Origin: Propionibacteriaceae bacterium | Lineage (GTDB): Bacteria; Actinomycetota; Actinomycetes; Propionibacteriales; Propionibacteriaceae | Direction of reading: 5' to 3' | DNA length: 7,936 nucleotides | Assembly (NCBI GenBank): GCA_030528545.1 | Contig: JAUMYR010000122.1 | Span: 1-7,936, forward strand | Shown: positions 1 to 7,874 of the stretch, piece after piece | Layout of the letters: every line of letters begins with the position of its first letter | Position numbering within the stretch: the first letter of the stretch is position 1 | The notes under the pieces: model-generated | Databases searched by the model: none | The model's input: the letters and a program-made list of their open reading frames with translations, nothing else | Told to the model about the DNA's origin: nothing | Program-made: the position numbers and the translations under genes

Positions 1-1278
1 GCCTACCGGGACCCCTACGAGCACACCCCCTACGCCCTCCTCCACGTCTACGACTGGTGCGAAGCCCACGACTACGCCACCGCCACCGGTGTGGTCGCCG
101 ACACCTACAACCGCCGCCCCTACACCACCCGCTACGGCCGATCCGTAGGAACCCCACTATGGTCCATCGCCAACCAGCTCGCCCCCAACGCCGGAGCGGT
201 CTACACCCTCGCCCCACGACCCTTCCGTGACCGCACCGGGGCCTGGTCCAACCCCGCCAGCTTCACCCTCACCCTCGAAGTCCTGAAACGCCCACCCCAG
301 TCCGCCCTCATCTGGGACGACGACTACCGCACCCCCGGCGCCGTCGCCTCCGCCTACTACACCCGCACAGGCACCTGGAGCCAGTGGGCGGCCCCCAGCG
401 GCACGCCCAGACCCTACGGGCAAGCCCGGGTCGGCACCCAAGGCGGGTCGCTCCTCGCCGCACACAACTTCGGCGCCAGATCCCTCCACGCCCAAGCCAG
501 GCTCCAGCTGCCCGCAGCCGGTGCCGCCGGGGTCCGTATCGGCACCATCCGCGCTGAAATCACCCACACCGGAACCCTCCAGCTCACCCACAACGGCACC
601 ACCCTCACCAGCACCACCGTGGACCCGCCAGGGATCAGCACCACCCCCGGCGACGGCACCGTCGTCATCGGGCTACGCATCCGGGGCACCAAAGCCCGGG
701 TCTACTACTCCACCACCGAAGCCCACACCCCGCTACGCCTCCAAGCCAGCGTGCCATCATCAGCCCTCACCGGACAGGCCGGACTCTGGGCAGCCAGCCC
801 AGCCTGGTTCGACCACCTCCGCATCGGCGACGGCTGGTGGTACCAGCCCCGGGAAGCCCTCACCGTCAGATTCGGTGACCACACCTGGACCGTCGGACGC
901 ATCCCCCGCACCGGCGTGAAGTGGGACCACTCCCGCAACATCTTCCGACCCCTCACCGACGTCGAAGAGATCACCACCAGAACCAAAGACATCAGCCCAG
1001 ACTGGGACTTCGACCACCAGCCCATCCCCATCAGCCTCGGCGAAACCCGCCACGTCACCATCCGCCCCCTCGACATCGGATGCTGGCTCGGCCGGATCTT
1101 CCTCTGCGACGCCCAAGGCGCATCCATCCTGCACTACTCCGACGTCGAATCCACCACCTACTGGATCAACCGAGCCACCTACGACTACCACCTCGACGGC
1201 TTCGCCCTCTGGGCACTCGGACAAGAAGACCTCCGCCTCTGGGAACGACTCAAAGGCGGCCACCTACCAACCACCTAA
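1..1278 (+). CDS. Phage minor tail protein, 5'-truncated, with concanavalin-like domain and glycosidase-like C-terminus
   Basis: The frame is open from base 1 to a TAA at 1276-1278, giving 425 visible residues; the start lies upstream. From about residue 103 to 279 the sequence has the pattern of a concanavalin A/LamG-like jelly roll: an opening IWDDDY, alternating beta-strand residues, and a closing GLWAASPAWFDHLRIGDGW, close to the usual ending of such domains. The last ~45 residues (DVESTTYWINRATYDYHLDG then FALWALGQEDLRLWERL) resemble the final strand and helix of GH18-type glycosidases, but no DxxDxE catalytic motif is visible, so activity is not supported. Base composition is strongly C-rich on this strand. 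The neighbours (wall-binding proteins, endolysin, holins) make a tail-tip or adhesion protein that contacts the host surface the best reading. The structural role is inferred; the exact tail component is unknown. Confidence 0.7.
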   Translation, partial: AYRDPYEHTPYALLHVYDWCEAHDYATATGVVADTYNRRPYTTRYGRSVGTPLWSIANQLAPNAGAVYTLAPRPFRDRTGAWSNPASFTLTLEVLKRPPQSALIWDDDYRTPGAVASAYYTRTGTWSQWAAPSGTPRPYGQARVGTQGGSLLAAHNFGARSLHAQARLQLPAAGAAGVRIGTIRAEITHTGTLQLTHNGTTLTSTTVDPPGISTTPGDGTVVIGLRIRGTKARVYYSTTEAHTPLRLQASVPSSALTGQAGLWAASPAWFDHLRIGDGWWYQPREALTVRFGDHTWTVGRIPRTGVKWDHSRNIFRPLTDVEEITTRTKDISPDWDFDHQPIPISLGETRHVTIRPLDIGCWLGRIFLCDAQGASILHYSDVESTTYWINRATYDYHLDGFALWALGQEDLRLWERLKGGHLPTT

Positions 1279-1290
1279 CAACGAAAGGAA
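1271..1290 (+). repeat. 20-bp direct repeat covering a stop/RBS junction, copy 1
   Basis: The bases CCACCTAACAACGAAAGGAA recur exactly at 2308-2327. This copy includes the TAA of the tail gene and the AAAGGA Shine-Dalgarno (1284-1289) of the following gene, 7 bases before its ATG at 1297. The shorter core ACGAAAGGAA also occurs at 3368-3377 before the endolysin. The repeat is part of the evidence that the 1297-3385 region arose by duplication. Confidence 0.85.
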
Positions 1291-1296
1291 ACCACC

Positions 1297-1719
1297 ATGG
1301 CCTGGAGCAACGACTGGAACAAGGTTCGCCCGACGCGCGTCGTGTGGCGTAACGACTGGTGCCACAGCGAAGGGACTGTGTGGGGTAAAGGTCATGCCAC
1401 CCGTGACGTCTACTCCAAGCAGACCATCTGCCCCGCCTGGGATGGTGCGGTCGATTCGCACACCTGGTGCTCCCACAACAACAAAAACGGCGATGGCTCA
1501 GCCGTGAAACGCATCCAGAGGAAGCTGAACGACGCAATCAGCCTCGCCCAGCAGGTCGAAACCGGAGTCCCGGCCCCCCTCGCCGTTGACGGCGTCCTCG
1601 GACCAAAAAGCCACTCCGCGATCGTATGGTTCCAGAAAGGCCGAGGGCTGAAGGACGATGGGCTCGTCGGCAAGAAAACCTGGGACAAGCTGGCAACCAC
1701 TCCAGGCTCACCCTGGTGA
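1297..1719 (+). CDS. Small protein with C-terminal peptidoglycan-binding domain (PG_binding_1-like), no catalytic domain
   Basis: 140 residues, started by ATG with AAAGGA 7 bases upstream. The C-terminal half matches the PG_binding_1 pattern: SAVKRIQRKLNDAI (68-81), LAVDGVLGPKSHSAIVWFQK (95-114) and LKDDGLVGKKTWDKL (118-132), with the two DGxxG turns typical of this three-helix fold. An extra ~10-residue loop (ISLAQQVETGVPAPL) lies between the first helix and the first turn. The N-terminal ~60 residues are rich in Trp and His with three cysteines (22, 45, 58); I do not recognise them. There is no signal peptide and no hydrolase motif. Coming just after a tail gene and two genes before the endolysin, it may be a virion-borne or lysin-associated wall-binding protein; that role is inferred. 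Its 3' end overlaps the convergent lipoprotein gene by 12 bp. Confidence 0.8.
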   Translation: MAWSNDWNKVRPTRVVWRNDWCHSEGTVWGKGHATRDVYSKQTICPAWDGAVDSHTWCSHNNKNGDGSAVKRIQRKLNDAISLAQQVETGVPAPLAVDGVLGPKSHSAIVWFQKGRGLKDDGLVGKKTWDKLATTPGSPW

Positions 1720-2289
1720 CTGACGCTCCAAACATTCGATGGCGGCCCGGAGAGCCTTCGGGCCGTCCTCGAAAGCAACCTGAGCAAACGTGTGCGTACC
1801 GGGCCAGTCCTCATTGACGATCGACGTGAGATCCCTGGCCCACACGGCATGATTCGTGTGCCTCTCCACCCCGTCGAAGGACACGGTGTCCCAGAAAGCA
1901 ATCGCGAACCCTTCGCTCACGGCGACCCGGACCGCAGGACGGCTCCAGTCGACGAAATCTCGTCGGCTCAGGGTCTTTCCGGCATCAGAGGACTTGGGCA
2001 AAGGTTCACACGCGAACCGTTCGCTCGGGTCGGATGGGATCAACTCCAGCACGTCCCCCTCGGGCCCTAGCACAGTGCCCGGTTTGGGCCCCCACGCCAA
2101 CCCATTAGGTGCAGGGCTCGCCGCCGGGGAGGCTGTCGTAGGCGCTGGCGTGGGCGCAGACGTCGCGAACGGGGCGTCCCAGTCCACGCTAGCGCTCGGC
2201 ACCGGCTCCGACGGCGGCTTGATCCCCAGCGCACTACACCCGGTGAGCAGAACACCCACACCTCCCAGCACAGCCCACAGTCCACGCAT
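1708..2289 (-). CDS. Phage-encoded lipoprotein A, probable lysogenic-conversion gene (moron)
   Basis: 193 residues read leftwards against the late operon. The ATG at 2289-2287 is chosen because it opens a classic lipoprotein signal peptide: MRGLWAVLGG, a hydrophobic core, and lipobox LLTGC with Cys18; the frame stays open upstream but without signal-like sequence. A Pro/Ala/Ser/Thr linker follows (about residues 24-70), then a C-terminal domain with two cysteines, one in FACEPL and one in IECLERQ near the end, which could form a disulfide. I recognise no family in that domain. Residues 1-49 are encoded by DNA identical to the start of the second leftward gene at 2851-3333. No Shine-Dalgarno precedes the ATG, but a CATACT hexamer lies six bases upstream, suggesting leaderless expression. 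By analogy with prophage lipoproteins such as Ltp of phage TP-J34, superinfection exclusion is possible but unproven. Confidence 0.82.
   Translation of the reverse strand: MRGLWAVLGGVGVLLTGCSALGIKPPSEPVPSASVDWDAPFATSAPTPAPTTASPAASPAPNGLAWGPKPGTVLGPEGDVLELIPSDPSERFACEPLPKSSDAGKTLSRRDFVDWSRPAVRVAVSEGFAIAFWDTVSFDGVERHTNHAVWARDLTSIVNEDWPGTHTFAQVAFEDGPKALRAAIECLERQSPG
2141..2289 (-). repeat. 149-bp perfect direct repeat, copy 1 (lipoprotein signal peptide and linker)
   Basis: This stretch is identical base for base with 3185-3333. It runs exactly from the start codon of lipoprotein A to codon 50, then identity stops abruptly. Beyond the start codon, similarity continues only patchily (AGTATGCCC at the same offset). 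Confidence 0.95.
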
Positions 2290-2295
2290 ACACCC

Positions 2296-2301
2296 AGTAT
2301 G
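2296..2301 (-). promoter_or_regulatory. Candidate -10 element of a leaderless promoter for lipoprotein A
   Basis: On the minus strand the hexamer CATACT ends six bases before the ATG, so a start site about 7 bases downstream would fall on the A of the start codon. The same hexamer at the same distance precedes lipoprotein B although flanking bases differ. No good TTGACA-type -35 is present 16-18 bp upstream; a TTG (TTGTTA) lies 11 bp upstream, too close for a normal sigma-A promoter. No Shine-Dalgarno is visible. Confidence 0.4.
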
Positions 2302-2307
2302 CCCCAG

Positions 2308-2327
2308 CCACCTAACAACGAAAGGAA
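2308..2327 (+). repeat. 20-bp direct repeat with RBS, copy 2
   Basis: Exact copy of 1271-1290. Here it is not preceded by a coding stop in use on this strand: it lies in the divergent gap between lipoprotein A and the next rightward gene, and supplies the AAAGGA (2321-2326) 8 bases before the ATG at 2335. Retention of the CCACCTAA part without coding need supports duplication of the junction. Confidence 0.85.
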
Positions 2328-2334
2328 CACCATC

Positions 2335-2847
2335 ATGGCCATCCCCGCAAAGCCCACCCAACGCCTCGCCGTCGACGGCATCATGGGCCAGAAAACCCGA
2401 GACGCCGCCGCCTGGGCGCTCAAGGTCACACGATTCACCAGCGGGACGACGATCCAGGACATGGGTTTGTTCGCCGAACGCAGTCTCCAGCGATGGTTGA
2501 ACCGGTACAAGACGTGGAAGAAAGTTCCGGTGACGTCGTGGGCGCACTCCTACTATCAGTGGGACCAAGCCCTCGAAGAAGATGGGGTTGTCGGCCCCCG
2601 CACTGAAGCCAAGCTCGGCGCCGTCATAACCTACTTCACGAATGGCTGGGCGCATGGCCCCCTTGATGACATCCTCATCCCGGCCGGTCGGTCAATCCGC
2701 TGTTTCCAGGCGCTGCTGAACGGCATGATCTTCCAAGAGCGTCCCATCGGCCCCCGCATCAAATATGTGAACTCCTCGGTTGAGTGGGGTTCTGGCCAGG
2801 CCCGGTGGGCGCTCGTTCCCGACCGCCCGAGCTGGCAAACGGTGTAA
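2335..2847 (+). CDS. Small protein with divergent peptidoglycan-binding-like motifs
   Basis: 170 residues. The ATG at 2335 is preferred over the in-frame ATG at 2299 because AAAGGA sits 8 bases upstream of it and the extra 12 residues would run into the divergent promoter region. Two PG_binding_1-like segments are visible, LAVDGIMGQKTRDAAAWALK (11-30) and EDGVVGPRTEAKLGAVITYF (82-101), each with a DGxxG turn followed by a helix; the tryptophan-rich sequence between them (LQRWLNRYKTW, HSYYQWDQAL) may complete a degenerate repeat. The last 60 residues are unrecognised. There is no signal peptide or catalytic motif. It occupies the same place in the second module as the 1297-1719 gene does in the first and is probably a strongly diverged paralogue or an analogous replacement. 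It converges on lipoprotein B with a 3-bp gap. A wall-binding role is inferred. Confidence 0.72.
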   Translation: MAIPAKPTQRLAVDGIMGQKTRDAAAWALKVTRFTSGTTIQDMGLFAERSLQRWLNRYKTWKKVPVTSWAHSYYQWDQALEEDGVVGPRTEAKLGAVITYFTNGWAHGPLDDILIPAGRSIRCFQALLNGMIFQERPIGPRIKYVNSSVEWGSGQARWALVPDRPSWQTV

Positions 2848-2850
2848 ACG

Positions 2851-3333
2851 TTACCCCTGCTCTAGGCACAACCGGGAAGCCTGCTCGGCCCGTGGCGTGA
2901 TCGTCTCTTCCTGGGCATCCTGCCCGGCGAGCCCACGGTAGAAGAACAGGTCCGGGCCCTCCTCGGGACTGGCATGGGTCCAGGTGAGATAGACGACCTG
3001 CCCATCCTTGCCGTGCGCGGCGACCATGGTAAAGGGCCGCCCGGAGTGATACCCCGCACCACCGTAGACGGCACCCATCGTCGTGGGACGCACACCCCAC
3101 TCGGCGAAGGCCGCACGGGCCTTCTCGGCGATGTCCTCGGGCAGGGTCTGGCACTCATAGGTCGGCTCCGGATAGGTCCGGGACGGCGCTGGCGTGGGCG
3201 CAGACGTCGCGAACGGGGCGTCCCAGTCCACGCTAGCGCTCGGCACCGGCTCCGACGGCGGCTTGATCCCCAGCGCACTACACCCGGTGAGCAGAACACC
3301 CACACCTCCCAGCACAGCCCACAGTCCACGCAT
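2851..3333 (-). CDS. Phage-encoded lipoprotein B, probable lysogenic-conversion gene (moron)
   Basis: 160 residues on the minus strand, ATG at 3333-3331, TAA at 2853-2851. The first 49 residues, including signal peptide, lipobox LTGC (Cys18) and linker to SAPTPAP, are identical to lipoprotein A. The payload then differs: a shorter linker (SRTYPEPT) and a compact ~105-residue domain starting at YECQTLPEDI and ending SRLCLEQG. As in lipoprotein A, one Cys opens and one closes the domain, and the endings (LCLEQG here, ECLERQ there) look alike, so the two domains may be distant relatives. I recognise no family. It should be anchored to the outer face of the membrane. Like its twin it has a CATACT hexamer six bases before the ATG and no Shine-Dalgarno. 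Its place among late genes on the opposite strand is typical of genes expressed by prophages, but function is unknown. Confidence 0.82.
   Translation of the reverse strand: MRGLWAVLGGVGVLLTGCSALGIKPPSEPVPSASVDWDAPFATSAPTPAPSRTYPEPTYECQTLPEDIAEKARAAFAEWGVRPTTMGAVYGGAGYHSGRPFTMVAAHGKDGQVVYLTWTHASPEEGPDLFFYRGLAGQDAQEETITPRAEQASRLCLEQG
3185..3333 (-). repeat. 149-bp perfect direct repeat, copy 2 (lipoprotein signal peptide and linker)
   Basis: Identical to 2141-2289, 1044 bp away. The boundary on the start-codon side is exactly the ATG; on the other side it is within codon 50. Zero mismatches, including synonymous sites, next to fully diverged DNA implies recent exchange or duplication of this segment rather than selection on protein alone. 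Confidence 0.95.
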
Positions 3334-3339
3334 GCATCA

Positions 3340-3345
3340 AGTATG
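3340..3345 (-). promoter_or_regulatory. Candidate -10 element of a leaderless promoter for lipoprotein B
   Basis: CATACT on the minus strand, six bases before the ATG, exactly as for lipoprotein A. The spacer bases differ (TGATGC here, GGGTGT there) while the hexamer and a neighbouring GGG are kept, which favours a functional element. A TTG (TTGTCG) again lies 11 bp upstream at 3362-3357. The nearest purine-rich stretch is too far from the ATG to be a normal ribosome site. Confidence 0.4.
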
Positions 3346-3385
3346 CCCTGGCCGGGCGACAATTCCCACGAAAGGAACACTCATC

Positions 3386-4054
3386 ATGCGGCTTGCCTAC
3401 ACCGGCGCTGACCGCGACCTCCAGCGCAGCCCAGAAACCACCCAGGCCCTCGCCCGCTGGGCCAACGCCACCTTCCCCACGGTCACGATCGGCTCGTCCT
3501 ACCGGCCCTGGGATGACTTCCGGGACCACCGCGAAGGCGCCCTCGACATCATGACCAGTGACCGATCGGTCCACGACCAGATCTGCGACGCCCTCATCAG
3601 GCTCCACAACCAGGGGGCCTGCGTGATCGTGTCCCTGATCTCCTGGGGCCGCCGCTGGACCCCCGGACAGGGCTGGCACCCCTACCGTGGCGGCAACCCC
3701 CACACCGACCACGTCCACGCCTGGCTACGCCCCTCCGGAGGCTTCCGCGGCGAAGGCACCGGAGCAGGACCCGCCCCGGCCAGGTACCCGCTCACCGGAC
3801 AGCGCCGGGCAGGTAGGCCCTGCTACTACGGCAACCGCAGCGGACCTGCCAACTGGGTCGGTGGCTACCACGCCAAGGATCGCCCCGGCATCCGCCAGAT
3901 CCAGGCCCGGCTCCGCCAGAGCGGCCACCAGATCGCCATCGACGGAATCTACGGCCCCCAGACCGAGGCCGCAGTCCGCGCCTACCAGGCCGGGCACGGC
4001 CTCACCGCTGATGGGCTGGTCGGTCCCGCGACCTGGGCCAGCCTCATGGACTGA
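3386..4054 (+). CDS. Endolysin: M15-like zinc peptidase with C-terminal peptidoglycan-binding domain
   Basis: 222 residues from an ATG with AAAGGA (3371-3376) 9 bases upstream; the longer in-frame reading back to 3194 would run through the lipoprotein B leader and is rejected. Residues ~1-118 resemble the M15/ARB_07466-like peptidase domain: GSSYRPWDDF (36-45), DHREGALDIM (47-56) with probable zinc ligands His48 and Asp54, and PHTDHVHAWL (105-114) with His109/His111. A short Gly/Pro/Ala linker follows (~119-137), then a PG_binding_1 domain (~168-220) with IRQIQARLRQ, AIDGIYGPQTEAAVRAYQ and LTADGLVGPATWASL. Such enzymes cut peptide bonds in peptidoglycan stem peptides or cross-bridges; the exact bond cannot be read here. 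No signal peptide, so export relies on the downstream holins. The stop overlaps the GAGGGG ribosome site of the next gene, showing tight coupling. Spacing in the zinc motif is one residue shorter than the form I remember. Confidence 0.85.
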   Translation: MRLAYTGADRDLQRSPETTQALARWANATFPTVTIGSSYRPWDDFRDHREGALDIMTSDRSVHDQICDALIRLHNQGACVIVSLISWGRRWTPGQGWHPYRGGNPHTDHVHAWLRPSGGFRGEGTGAGPAPARYPLTGQRRAGRPCYYGNRSGPANWVGGYHAKDRPGIRQIQARLRQSGHQIAIDGIYGPQTEAAVRAYQAGHGLTADGLVGPATWASLMD

Positions 4055-4062
4055 GGGGCTGG

Positions 4063-4500
4063 GTGAGCATGATGCCTCTCCGCCGTGTCTGGCTCCTCGT
4101 GCAGGAGCCGAGGGTGGTCACCGCCACGGTCAGCGTGGCGTGGCTCATCATCACCGGGATCGGGGTCGCCGCGCTAGTGGCCCCACCCCCCACGATCGCC
4201 CACGAGTGGGGGCCGCACCTCACCACGGTGTGGGGCGTCATGCTCACCACGGGGGGAGCACTCGGCATAGCTGGGTGTCTCCCCGGCTGGTGGTGGATCG
4301 AGCGGGCCGGGATCATCGCGACGTGGACCGGCTGCGCCATGTATCTATCCATCGTGCTCCTGCTCCACGCCTGGGGACCCGATTCCAGGCTGGTCCACGC
4401 CGGATTCATCACCCTCGCGATCGTCGGGACACTCGCGAGGTGGCTCCGGATCAGCGGCCCAGCTCTGGACCCACACCGAGGCAGGAGCACGACCCGATGA
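4063..4500 (+). CDS. Four-helix membrane protein of the lysis cassette (putative holin or holin partner)
   Basis: 145 residues if started at the GTG at 4063; ATGs at 4069 and 4072 in the same frame are alternatives, and GAGGGG (4053-4058), which overlaps the endolysin stop, could serve either. Four hydrophobic segments are visible: about 19-40 (VTATVSVAWLIITGIGVAAL), 53-74 (LTTVWGVMLTTGGALGIAGC), 83-103 (GIIATWTGCAMYLSIVLLL) and 109-128 (RLVHAGFITLAIVGTLARW), followed by a short basic tail. I do not recognise a named family. Position directly after the endolysin and before two more small membrane proteins suggests a role in membrane permeabilisation or lysis timing. The stop overlaps the next start as ATGA. 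The dual GTG/ATG start recalls holin genes with two starts, but that is only an analogy. Confidence 0.65.
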   Translation: MSMMPLRRVWLLVQEPRVVTATVSVAWLIITGIGVAALVAPPPTIAHEWGPHLTTVWGVMLTTGGALGIAGCLPGWWWIERAGIIATWTGCAMYLSIVLLLHAWGPDSRLVHAGFITLAIVGTLARWLRISGPALDPHRGRSTTR

Positions 4501-4811: not shown

Positions 4812-5082
4812 CATCATCACTCTCGCCGCCACCGCCCCGGCAGTCGTCGCGCTCACCAACCTGGCCCGCGAACTGGGCCTGCCCTCACGGGCCGGAATGC
4901 TGCTGGCTGTCACCCTCGGCATCGCCCTATCCGTCGCCGACTACGCCCTCACCGGCACCGGATGGTACGAGCAGGCCGTCGCTGGGCTCATGCTCGGGCT
5001 AGCAGCGGCAGGCCTCCACGACCTCGCCGGTCGCGCAGCCACCCCACGCCGCGCACTCAACGGATATCAGGACGCCGCGTGA
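4804..5082 (+). CDS. Putative holin
   Basis: 92 residues, ATG at 4804 with AGGAAA (4792-4797) 6 bases upstream. Size and layout suit a holin: hydrophobic segments at ~3-20 (DIITLAATAPAVVALTNLA), ~30-48 (AGMLLAVTLGIALSVADYA) and ~56-75 (EQAVAGLMLGLAAAGLHDLA), and a short polar tail with Arg residues (RAATPRRALNGYQDAA). The pattern LTNLARELGLPSR, then a membrane segment, then AGLMLGLAAAGLHD is like many small Gram-positive phage holins (from memory, no search made). Holins form membrane lesions that release the endolysin. The stop overlaps the next start as GTGA. With two other membrane proteins beside it, it is the best single holin candidate in the cassette. Confidence 0.72.
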   Translation: MTDIITLAATAPAVVALTNLARELGLPSRAGMLLAVTLGIALSVADYALTGTGWYEQAVAGLMLGLAAAGLHDLAGRAATPRRALNGYQDAA

Positions 5083-6464
5083 CCACGCACCGGAGCATGG
5101 AGCTGAACCAGCCGCCAGCGATCGCTGACGTGTACCTGGTGGCTGGAAGCTCAGCACAGCTGACCGCACAACACCTGCCCGCGGGCACGAAACTGGAGTT
5201 CGACTCCCCGGCATGGGCCGCCCGGACACCGGTCATGGACTCCGGGGTGGCCCGGTGGAGGCTCTCCCCACAAGACGTTGCTGGGCTGGCCAACGCCCAG
5301 CACGTCCGCCTCGTCGCCGACGAGCAGACCATCGCGGCAGGGAGGGTGTACCACGTCAGCGAATGGCCCCGCTGGGTGACCGGAGGCACGCAACGCATCA
5401 CCTATGTGCCAGGACCTACAGGCCCAGCCGGGGCTGCTGGGGTAGGGATCTCCAGCATCACCCAGCCCCAGCCCACCCAGATGCGCATCAGCCTCGATGA
5501 CGGCAACTCGTATGACCTGACGCTGCCAGGTGGTGGAACCGCCGCACCGCTCACCGAGGAAGCGATCGCCACCGCGCTCGGCTACGTCCTAGTGACATCG
5601 GAGGAGCCGCCCACCGAGTCCACCCGGTGGGGAGTGCCTATCGTGTGGGTGCCGCGCCGCGCCTACACGGTAGAGGTGCCGGTGACACCACTCCAGCCAT
5701 CCGCCGACCTAGCGGCCCGCACGATCACCATCCCCACGGTGACCGGGGTGGAGTACCTCATCGACGGTCAGGTAGTGACTGGTGTATGGACGGCCAGTCA
5801 GGATGGAGTGGTCACCGTGACCGCCCGGGCGCTGCCCGGCTATCTACTCGTCGGCCCCGCACAGTGGCAGTACACGCTCGGGGCACCACCCCCCGCGGGG
5901 GGCCTCATCGCGGGCGACGACTTCTCCGGGCTCGACGAAGGGGCCTCCCTCGTCCCCGATGGGTCCCCCGGGCTGGTGGGCCGAGCCTGGCCGCAGCAGG
6001 GCAGCCTGACCGTGAACTGGAGCAAGTGGGGGTCCACCAAGGAACCGCTTGTCGCCGCCAGTGGTGGCGTGACCCGCCAGAGCAACAGCGGCTGGGCACA
6101 CGCTGACATCGGTCAGGCCGACTACCTGGTCGAGCTGGATCTCGTCCCAGCCGCCACCACCCACGGATCCATGATCAGCCTGGTCTGTGGGCTGGGGGCG
6201 AGCCGTCGGGGCGGTGTCGAGTTCGCGATCCACGGCCGCACGACCGGCGCCACGATCGGCGGCACCCAGGTGACACACCTGAGCCAGCACGATGTCACCG
6301 GAACATGGCGCATCCGCAAGCGCGGAGGGGTACTCAGCATCGACGCACCCAACCAGCCAGGCATCGCCACCGTCAGCAAAGAAGTCACCCCAGATTGGGG
6401 GAACGTGCTTCAACTCCGCGTGACACTCGCTGGCCTCGTCCGTGGAATCAGGGTATTCCAATGA
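5079..6464 (+). CDS. Tail fibre / receptor-binding-type protein with collagen-like linker and C-terminal jelly-roll domain
   Basis: 461 residues from the GTG at 5079, which overlaps the holin stop (GTGA) and has AGGA (5069-5072) 6 bases upstream; the ATG at 5097 is a weaker alternative. A beta-rich N-terminal ~100 residues (ADVYLVAGSSAQL, LVADEQTIAAGRVYHVSEWP) resembles phage baseplate attachment regions. Residues 112-121, GPTGPAGAAG, are a short collagen-like stretch, common at trimer junctions in tail fibres. TEEAIATALGYVLVTSEEPP (from ~166) resembles a fibre segment seen in many tail proteins. The middle (VEYLIDGQVVTGVWTASQDG) looks Ig-like. From ~274, IAGDDFSGLDEG opens a concanavalin/LamG-like domain to the C-terminus, ending LRVTLAGLVRGIRVFQ. 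Probably a trimeric host-binding fibre. The stop overlaps the next start (ATGA). Confidence 0.75.
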   Translation: MTTHRSMELNQPPAIADVYLVAGSSAQLTAQHLPAGTKLEFDSPAWAARTPVMDSGVARWRLSPQDVAGLANAQHVRLVADEQTIAAGRVYHVSEWPRWVTGGTQRITYVPGPTGPAGAAGVGISSITQPQPTQMRISLDDGNSYDLTLPGGGTAAPLTEEAIATALGYVLVTSEEPPTESTRWGVPIVWVPRRAYTVEVPVTPLQPSADLAARTITIPTVTGVEYLIDGQVVTGVWTASQDGVVTVTARALPGYLLVGPAQWQYTLGAPPPAGGLIAGDDFSGLDEGASLVPDGSPGLVGRAWPQQGSLTVNWSKWGSTKEPLVAASGGVTRQSNSGWAHADIGQADYLVELDLVPAATTHGSMISLVCGLGASRRGGVEFAIHGRTTGATIGGTQVTHLSQHDVTGTWRIRKRGGVLSIDAPNQPGIATVSKEVTPDWGNVLQLRVTLAGLVRGIRVFQ

Positions 6465-7666
6465 GAATCTGGAACGATTCCCATGGGGGATGGTGGCGTG
6501 ACACCATCCCCCACGAGCACACCCCCCGCGGATGGCGGCCCATCATGGAGCCCCAATACCCAGGGCAGACCAGCTACGACCCGTTCTGGCCCCGCTACAT
6601 CGGGCAGGACACCATCTGGCAGCGGGACGTCAGAGGGGACGCTATGCCGCTGGCCCACAACAGCGCAGCGATGGCCGCCTGGATGGACACCCACAGCCCC
6701 GACCCCTGGAACCCCGCGGCGTTCGGGTCGAAGACCTCGCTCAACGCTCACACGTTTGGTACCGCACCCGTCGCGACCTACATCGTGGACTCATCACAGC
6801 CCGGCTGCCCCACCCAGACCATGGACAGCTGCCGGGGTGCGGGCCTCACCCGGGAACAGATCGAGGCCTACCTAACCGGGCCAATCCCCTGGCCAGCGCA
6901 CGTGCTGCCTGCCCGCAACGGTGACAAGGGCCTATGCATTATCGACATCGCCACCGGCATCTGGCGGGAATACTTCATGGTCCTGCCTGTCGAAGGCAAG
7001 CCGGGGCACTGGACTGCGCTAGCTGGCGGCTTCGCCGTCTACCGCCCCGGATTCGACGGGCTCATCCGCTCAGGTGTCTACGCGCCGCAGCACACCGCTG
7101 GACACGGCACCGTCTTCGGCGGCTTCGACATGCTGGGCTATATCGGCGCGGAAGAAGCCTTCCGGGGTGAGATCCGCCACGCCCTCGCCTTCACGACAGC
7201 AAACTTCGCCAAGACCGAGATCCCGTCCTGGCCAGCCCGGCTCAGCGACGGCAAAGCCCCCCTCTCGGAGGCGGACAAGTCACCCACTCACGGACAATGG
7301 GCCAGGCTCCCCGCCACTGTGGACCCGACACAAGACCCACGCACGGGACGCCCCTACAAGCCCCTCACGCGGCTACTGATCCGCGCAGCACAACGCTACG
7401 GGCTTGTCGCCACCGACACCAACGCCTGGTGCCACGCATTCAAAGCGTGGAGCAGCCCAGAGACGGCACAGCGATACGGCGGCAACGATCCCTGGGCCCC
7501 TGGGGGCCTGATCGCCCAGCACCTCCTCCCCTCCGACCCCAACCAGGGCCTCGCGGTAGACGACTTCCCCTGGCACCTGACCGAGTGGGCCCCCATCGAT
7601 TGGGGGCGCCCCAGCCCAGACTTCAACCTCCGCCCCGGAGAATGGAGACCCTGGACCCGATCATGA
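6461..7666 (+). CDS. Large protein of unknown function at the end of the tail-fibre operon
   Basis: 401 residues, ATG at 6461 overlapping the fibre gene stop, AGGG (6450-6453) 7 bases upstream. The N-terminal ~85 residues are rich in Trp, Pro, His and Asp (IWNDSHGGWWRDTIPHEHTP). From ~100 to 330 the sequence looks like a folded domain: VATYIVDSSQPG, GLCIIDIATGIWREYFM, WTALAGGFAVY, MLGYIGAEEAFRGEIRHALA, PSWPARLSDGK, ARLPATVDP and LIRAAQRYGLVATDTNAW. From memory, the series GxIxHAL...SDG...RLxxxxD...ARALQRYGxxVxD occurs in uncharacterised actinobacterial secreted and phage proteins; I cannot assign a reaction. No signal peptide or membrane segment. Coupling to the fibre gene suggests a tail-tip, fibre-partner or surface-glycan-acting protein. 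It is the last gene before the terminator. Confidence 0.72.
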   Translation: MRIWNDSHGGWWRDTIPHEHTPRGWRPIMEPQYPGQTSYDPFWPRYIGQDTIWQRDVRGDAMPLAHNSAAMAAWMDTHSPDPWNPAAFGSKTSLNAHTFGTAPVATYIVDSSQPGCPTQTMDSCRGAGLTREQIEAYLTGPIPWPAHVLPARNGDKGLCIIDIATGIWREYFMVLPVEGKPGHWTALAGGFAVYRPGFDGLIRSGVYAPQHTAGHGTVFGGFDMLGYIGAEEAFRGEIRHALAFTTANFAKTEIPSWPARLSDGKAPLSEADKSPTHGQWARLPATVDPTQDPRTGRPYKPLTRLLIRAAQRYGLVATDTNAWCHAFKAWSSPETAQRYGGNDPWAPGGLIAQHLLPSDPNQGLAVDDFPWHLTEWAPIDWGRPSPDFNLRPGEWRPWTRS

Positions 7667-7679
7667 ACCCCGGCAACCG

Positions 7680-7715
7680 AACGCCCCGCCCTGATCGAGG
7701 GCGGGGCGTTTCGTC
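7680..7715 (+). terminator. Strong intrinsic terminator of the rightward late operon
   Basis: A perfect 12-bp GC-rich stem (ACGCCCCGCCCT, 7681-7692, with AGGGCGGGGCGT, 7698-7709), extended by an A-T pair at 7680/7710, encloses the 5-base loop GATCG and is followed by TTTCGTCGTC. It lies 14 bases after the last stop codon. The T-run is short, as is common in high-GC actinobacteria. The preceding gene junctions 4054 to 7666 lack such hairpins, so this appears to end the whole lysis and fibre transcript. Confidence 0.88.
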
Positions 7716-7746
7716 GTCTCCCGGCTGCCGCTAGGACGTAACCGGC

Positions 7747-7818
7747 CCCGGTACGATTTGGGTACGATCGCGCTCCGGCGTGCAGGTAAAAGGCCTAGTG
7801 AATCGTACCCGGTACGAC
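7747..7818. repeat. Cluster of four GGTACGA repeats, probable protein-binding site
   Basis: GGTACGAT occurs at 7750-7757 and 7761-7768 (11 bp apart, about one helical turn, same face). Its inverse ATCGTACC lies at 7802-7809 and a fourth copy, GGTACGAC, at 7811-7818; the last two form the near-palindrome TCGTACCCGGTACGA. CCCGGTACGA is repeated exactly at 7747-7756 and 7808-7817. The two pairs flank about 33 bp that include GGTAAAAGGCCTAGTG. Such an array suits integrase arm sites, an excisionase or repressor operator, or an attachment region, all common after the lysis/fibre end of temperate phage maps. No integrase is in the window to decide. Confidence 0.6.
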
Positions 7819-7874
7819 AGGACTTGCTCGCACACAGTGGCACTTGGCGGCACCTGCGGATGCTCTCCGGGGCA

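Follow-up and report, generated by a model that had tools for sequence, protein, structure and literature searches.

Many phage exclusion proteins are tethered, some through a lipid anchor and others through a membrane helix (PMC3952083). In Ltp of the Streptococcus thermophilus phage TP-J34, a lipid anchor is followed by a low-complexity spacer and an outer domain, and the protein blocks DNA injection (PMC3952083). Here we describe a locus that may encode surface proteins of this kind in a stretch of 7,936 nucleotides from a Propionibacteriaceae bacterium (assembly GCA_030528545.1, contig JAUMYR010000122.1), referred to below as the window, which is a late region and reads as that of an actinobacterial tailed phage. 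Between a minor tail gene and an endolysin gene lies a block in which a rightward gene for a small wall-binding protein (P1, P2) faces a leftward gene for a predicted lipoprotein (L1, L2), twice in tandem, so that the order after the tail gene is P1, L1, P2, L2, endolysin, membrane protein, holin and further late genes (Table 1). The joint explanation that fits best, to which we assign a probability of about 0.45, is that the two units are tandem alleles of a convergent cassette, joined by unequal recombination, and that the surface protein most likely excludes other phages.

The two pairs are not simple copies of each other. A blastn self-comparison of the window finds DNA similarity between the units in two repeats, an anchor repeat of 164 bp (98% identity, E 2e-79) and a leader repeat of 37 bp (92%, E 3e-08), and none outside them, where the interiors do not align. 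The anchor repeat includes the 5' ends of L1 and L2, whose 149 coding bp (2141–2289 in L1) are without differences, and both proteins begin MRGLWAVLGGVGVLLTGC. By sequence reading, each has a lipobox (LTGC) and a stretch rich in Pro, Ser and Thr, which fits an Ltp-type lipoprotein build, and the GC content by codon position is of the coding type in both (0.65/0.59/0.73 in L1 and 0.68/0.57/0.80 in L2). The first-pass annotation of this DNA had described a tandemly duplicated two-gene module, with coordinates for five genes that are all correct. The near-constant period and the tail-to-tail arrangement that it reported were found again, with spacings of 1038 and 1051 bp between the rightward starts and of 1044 bp between the leftward ones, a 12-bp overlap of the ends of P1 and L1 and a 3-bp gap between P2 and L2; so was a common motif ahead of all three rightward genes (ACGAAAGGAA at 1281–1290, 2318–2327 and 3368–3377). 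Its proposal that the endolysin is the rightward gene of a third unit does not hold, since only a part of the leader (3368–3388, 21 bp, E 0.01 only) stands before the endolysin, which is not a third copy.

At the protein level both gene types appear to be homologous between the units. P1 and P2 are remotely homologous, as judged by sequence comparison (z 7.4, reached in 0/500 shuffles; BLASTP E 9e-06 in a single comparison), and have a wall-binding domain in common, PG_binding_1 (PF01471), which passes the cut-off of 23 bits in P1 (40.6 bits, E 3e-10) and in P2 (28.2 bits, E 2.2e-06). The same domain ends the endolysin (E 7.2e-18), as had been noticed in the first pass, and this C-terminus is the nearest relative of P1 (33% over 75 amino acids (aa), E 1e-11, z 17). 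The pairwise comparisons support the kinship of P1 with P2 and with the endolysin C-terminus; the score of P1 against the P2-family profile is weak (probability 36%, E 0.00038). Residues 1–66 of P1 have no domain match. In a Pfam scan of P1 and P2 only PG_binding_1 and PG_binding_3 rise above noise and no catalytic family is matched, a weak negative because the N-terminal part of the endolysin has no catalytic Pfam match either; the endolysin is so called from its binding domain, its position and a PHROG endolysin match (2.5e-17) to the binding part only. The PHROG endolysin matches of P1 likewise lie mainly in the binding part, and the P proteins look like relatives of endolysin wall-binding domains; by reading, they carry no signal peptide.

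The outer domains (heads) of L1 and L2 are, on sequence grounds, remotely homologous too: their global alignment scores 47, against 11.1 ± 5.3 for shuffled sequences (0/1000 shuffles reach 47), and pairs one cysteine near the start of the head and one near the C-terminus. The full-length profile comparison of the two proteins aligned the anchors only. Each protein has database relatives of its own, P0001, P0003 and P0007 for L1 (P0007 matching 91% of its length at 37%) and P0005 and P0006 for L2, P0005 being close to L2 over about the first 75 residues and less so beyond. The predicted model of the L2 head has an alpha-beta4-alpha order, with a mean pLDDT (predicted local distance difference test) of 68, and is weakly cystatin-like. 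As far as checked, then, neither unrelated folds in the rightward proteins nor lipoproteins at unrelated loci were found.

The same convergent pair, newly recognised here, also occurs in 12 of the 31 other non-redundant loci that carry a related tail gene. Scanning with an alignment of tail proteins yielded 37 IMG/VR loci, and genome searches added prophage-like loci (in 1/396 genomes and in 6/295, that one included). The 44 loci examined comprise 34 of the 37 (L043–L045, with cut tail genes, were not used), the Microbacterium phages Eleri and Kauala, G085, five further genomes, the Glutamicibacter phage Montesquieu (L080) and the window. Of these 44, 34 extend for 2.7 kb or more beyond the tail gene; the ten shorter ones were left out, and after removal of duplicates (L012 of L001, L078 of L029) 32 loci remain. 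A wall-binding-only gene facing a leftward surface-protein gene occurs in 13/32, that is, in the window and in L024, L029, L030, L031, L032, L033, L035, L036, L041, L076, L077 and L079, with one wall-binding gene in each of the twelve, which are thus single-pair relatives; by the pair scan, 16/32 loci have neither gene type. L032, L033 and L035 share the arrangement of the window, having the pair between tail gene and endolysin, and their gene ends overlap by 4 bp (L032, L033) or 8 bp (L035); the remaining nine have the pair downstream of the endolysin, so it stays together at two genomic places. Lipoboxes are found in the surface genes of L029, L030, L031 (64 aa only), L032, L033, L035, L036 and L041 and in the first of the two in L079; those of L024, L076 and L077 and the second in L079 lack one and have a signal or transmembrane anchor. 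As to the wall-binding genes, the scan missed those of L033 and L035, which were recognised by reading; among four tested in Pfam, L032 (25.1 bits) and L036 (29.3) pass the cut-off and L041 (21.1) and L029 (14.6) fall below it, and the others were assigned by motif or reading. Antisense hydrophobic open reading frames (ORFs) that the scan flagged opposite full-length endolysins or holins (e.g. in L010, L015, L019, L020, L027, L032, L033, L035 and L041), and small ones in L077 and L079, were set aside as likely shadows of rightward genes; a 93-aa ORF flagged by the lipobox scan in L016 does not adjoin a wall-binding gene.

Across these loci, the surface-protein anchors and heads reassort. With normalised local protein scores, taking the first 50 aa as anchor and aa 61 onwards as head (an arbitrary cut), similar anchors carry different heads in L1/L2 (anchor 1.00, head 0.08), L032/L033 (0.60, 0.11) and L077/L079 (0.75, 0.18), and similar heads stand on different anchors in L030/L079 (0.18, 0.73) and L036/L077 (0.13, 0.56), both with a switch between a lipid and a transmembrane anchor. 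Ordinary pairs are L029/L030 (0.77, 0.41) and L033/L035 (0.49, 0.79); the head score of L031 is meaningless with a gene of 64 aa. Exchange of a lipid for a membrane anchor under one head fits surface display being all that matters, and replacement of the head fits an interaction with a changing partner, phage or host. Identity along the loci shows a clear divergent DNA island in 2/7 non-redundant locus pairs. One is L032/L033, with 98–100% on the endolysin side, 40–77% through the pair and 77–85% in the tail gene; the other is L036/L041, with 91–100% over the endolysin, a stretch of about 50% behind it, 85–96% just before the P gene, 35–63% inside the pair and one bin of 79% after it. L032/L035 and L036/L024 are uninformative, their flanks differing too. 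The lysis genes are, from their domain matches, swapped as well between loci with related tail genes, the catalytic part of the endolysin being Peptidase_M15_4 in L029 and Amidase_2 in L036 and L041; for L032 no catalytic family of Pfam matched. Stacking recurs in L079 (reverse complement), where two antisense surface genes stand in tandem (5449–5976 and 6028–6651), the lipid anchor of one resembling that of L029 and L030 and the transmembrane anchor of the other that of L077.

These observations bear on how the array arose. A unit may have been duplicated once, after which the copies diverged while gene conversion kept the L 5' ends and the leaders identical. The constant period, order and orientation, the homology of the L heads and of the P domains and the kinship of P1 with the phage's own endolysin domain all speak for such a history; even so we consider it rather unlikely, since it has to account for 149 unchanged coding bp beside interiors that cannot be aligned as DNA and requires a later conversion of the ends only, whereas some relatives already show similar anchors with different heads at a single-copy locus and joining needs fewer steps. 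The joining of two alleles through their constant ends is preferred because identical ends with unrelated interiors are how some alleles of this locus differ between relatives, and on the sequences it is most likely the origin of the array, somewhat ahead of duplication with slow divergence. In this process, recombination near the 5' ends would swap heads and anchors between phages, and an unequal crossover between two phages at the anchor or leader sequence could give the observed array in one step, leaving two different heads on one anchor. The earlier statement that the two genes were duplicated together and then diverged is therefore partly supported: the homology of the pairs and the single-copy relatives agree with it, but the repeats in the DNA self-alignment are confined to the L 5' ends and leaders, the contrast with the interiors is left unexplained, and joining is at least as likely.

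Several observations weigh against the joint explanation given above. The island pattern is not general: L029/L030 is mixed and follows it only partly, in L033/L035 the pair is at 62–86% except for the lipoprotein 5'-end bins (52–71%) with the endolysin side at 33–65%, and in L041/L024 the P gene (61–86%) exceeds its neighbours in identity; even L032/L033 has 65% in the bin over the signal peptide and 90% in that over the spacer. P protein and head do not covary cleanly (L024/L041 score 0.72 for P and 0.15 for the head), and P1 and P2 compared with the P proteins of the relatives give z from –0.7 to 4.6, except P2–L036 (8.6) and P1–L031 (5.4). The profile comparison of the L1 and L2 heads is weak (probability 1–2%, E 0.0095 global and 0.042 local), and none of the heads passes a curated cut-off in Pfam or NCBIfam. 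Neither an integrase nor a repressor was noticed in the window, and its phage may therefore not be temperate. Pairing is also loose, since in L007 and L040 an antisense lipoprotein faces another gene and Montesquieu has, by motif, a wall-binding-only gene with no lipoprotein. One kind of gene thus occurs without the other in these three loci, and wherever the pair follows the endolysin (nine of nine cases) its two genes are set apart by a strong terminator-like hairpin (–30 to –57 kcal/mol for the + strand, no shuffled control), whose A-rich and T-rich borders would suit termination in both directions. This would suit an account in which the two genes are neighbours by position only, the wall-binding gene ending the late operon and the lipoprotein gene starting a leftward cluster. 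We think it unlikely, because in the window, L032, L033 and L035 the pair stands between tail gene and endolysin with its genes adjacent (4 to 12 bp of overlap, or a 3-bp gap), and because the window holds the pair twice. A strong hairpin is absent between the genes of L032, L033 and both window pairs, where values are –8 to –20 on either strand, again with no shuffled control.

As a cassette, the pair would work as follows. The leftward gene is predicted to encode a membrane-anchored protein of the cell surface, in which a flexible spacer rich in Pro, Ser and Thr carries an outer head that can be exchanged; its expression, in the infected cell or the lysogen, is probably driven by a promoter of its own. 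By eye, with no control, –10-like hexamers precede 11 of the 12 surface genes of relatives inspected, that of L031 not being among them (e.g. TAGACT in L029, L024 and L077, and TACGAT in L033 and TAGAGT in L035, seven bases before the ATG). In the window, CATACT lies exactly six bases before the ATG of L1 and of L2, with no clear ribosome site, a spacing that would suit leaderless transcripts, although the cases are few and read by eye; a consensus scanner found no sigma-70 site in 1200–3450. All five integrase candidates (L007, L031, L036, L040 and L079) match Phage_integrase, so at least these loci look temperate, and three of them carry the pair. The rightward gene, in the late operon, should give a small wall-binding protein related to the endolysin binding domain; with no catalytic match and no signal peptide by reading, this protein would probably leave the cell together with the endolysin and may coat the wall or wall debris.

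The surface protein most likely blocks superinfection by other phages, perhaps in an Ltp-like mode. Pfam contains an Ltp model, and hmmscan listed no Ltp family in Pfam for L1, L2 and the antisense proteins of six relatives, or in NCBIfam for L1, L2 and those of five. PADLOC-DB, searched with 10 proteins including L1, L2, P1 and P2, gave 0 families at E ≤ 0.1, which also counts against exclusion; with no family match for the heads and none in PADLOC, the exclusion reading is drawn from architecture. The same build could serve other lysogenic-conversion functions, such as adhesion, protease inhibition or the serum resistance conferred by Bor of phage lambda, and a cystatin-like head or a changing host partner could be read in this way; we regard such roles as improbable beside the likeness to anchored exclusion proteins. 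If the proposed reading is true, actinobacterial phage genomes have a recurrent place for trading anchor-plus-head surface cassettes, and phages that differ in this cassette only should differ in the phages that they exclude. A wider idea, to be taken as quite speculative, is that actinobacterial phages keep a place for trading exclusion heads and for stacking two alleles, which would widen the protection, with a late partner that lets progeny escape exclusion or debris.

Table 1. Features of the tandem block and its borders in the window.
Feature	Position	Strand	Remarks
Minor tail protein, C-terminal part	91..1278	+	PHROG 3432, E 3e-111; left border of block
Leader repeat, copy 1	1267..1302	+	End of tail gene, ribosome binding site-like ACGAAAGGAA (1281–1290), start of P1
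P1, 140-aa wall-binding protein	1297..1719	+	PG_binding_1 at residues 67–132
L1, 193-aa predicted lipoprotein	1708..2289	-	Anchor, Pro/Ser/Thr-rich spacer, head; LTGC lipobox by reading
Anchor repeat, copy 1	2141..2304	-	First 149 coding bases of L1 and 15 bp upstream
–10-like CATACT	2296..2301	-	Six bases before L1 start; read by eye
Leader repeat, copy 2	2304..2340	+	Precedes P2
P2, 170-aa wall-binding protein	2335..2847	+	PG_binding_1, E 2.2e-06; own small family P0008–P0012
L2, 160-aa predicted lipoprotein	2851..3333	-	Lipobox by reading; relatives P0005, P0006
Anchor repeat, copy 2	3185..3348	-	98% to copy 1
–10-like CATACT	3340..3345	-	Six bases before L2 start; read by eye
Endolysin	3386..4054	+	Named by binding domain and position; right border of block

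Further searches concerned the distribution of the single proteins. In viral_contigs no confirmed relatives of L1, L2, the P2 family or the endolysin were found, and in phage records neither region 1250–4100 (distant mode) nor L2 gave a match; among the relatives, the P protein of L029 matched only three Arthrobacter phage endolysins in phage records and that of L032 nothing. The sole match of the P2 family in genome_contigs is L002 (7001–7501), where the gene stands alone beside genes reading as sugar transport in a Bifidobacteriaceae metagenome-assembled genome; it has one in-frame TGA, is of no use for context, and its genome is the only one matched among 18 of the family. A match in G385 (one of 2/396 genomes, the other being G001) was rejected, as the protein appears to be encoded on a chromosome and to contain wall-binding domains in several copies. 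Lipoprotein alignment A2 matched in 6/394 genomes of the class and was discarded as signal-peptide noise; of its seven matches, six were confined to model positions 1 to about 65 and one reached 99. Ten loci, L057–L066, out of 14 in one scan (the other four being L032–L035), were dropped because the matches lie inside larger ORFs of 180 to 305 aa. A further scan gave two loci, both already part of the set. In L007, L040 and L075 another rightward family, with a motif like DRAYELGYRPDWDG, follows the endolysin, facing the antisense lipoprotein in L007 and L040; its member in L040 has no Pfam match.

Downstream in the window, one of the two large genes after the holin (5079–6464 and 6461–7666) is fibre-like, with a GPTGPAGAAG collagen-type stretch and only one Pfam match, below threshold, and for the other Pfam, PHROGs, NCBIfam and PADLOC all gave nothing. 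The late operon probably terminates at 7680–7710, where the last rightward gene is closely followed by a GC-rich inverted repeat and then a short run of T. Beyond it, at 7745–7825, several words like GGTACGATT and AATCGTACC, direct and inverted, were seen by eye; they could be operators or belong to an attachment region.

The locus can be set beside known systems as follows. Eleri and Kauala have a tail protein with 48% identity to that of the window and, directly after its gene, lysin A, so the block 1279–3385 is extra relative to these phages. Both are without the pair, and Microbacterium phages account for 166/185 of the annotated phage records with a related tail gene, which may be why the pair has escaped attention. 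Endolysin wall-binding domains of the PG_binding_1 type recur in P1 and P2, P1 being nearest to the window's own endolysin; the two differ from endolysins as small separate genes with no catalytic family match, although the window endolysin has no catalytic Pfam match either. The bor gene of lambda is a lipoprotein gene antisense to the late operon near the lysis genes and is expressed in the lysogen; it differs in being a single gene for a Gram-negative outer-membrane lipoprotein, with no wall-binding partner. In the actinobacteria, gp41 of Cutibacterium acnes phages, a putative Ltp-like protein, is membrane-anchored with an outer domain modelled as cystatin-like (PMC11480721). The weakly cystatin-like L2 head resembles it by description and model only, and gp41 is conserved in all C. 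acnes phage genomes surveyed in that work (PMC11480721), whereas the head is the variable part of the proteins described here. Ltp has the same build as the leftward proteins, with lipid anchor, spacer and outer domain, but its gene lies in the lysogeny module (PMC3952083), whereas the genes described here run antisense to the late genes among which they lie, each next to a gene for a wall-binding protein. The surface proteins tested match no Ltp family, and the locus differs further from Ltp in that its heads and anchors reassort and two probable alleles stand in tandem.

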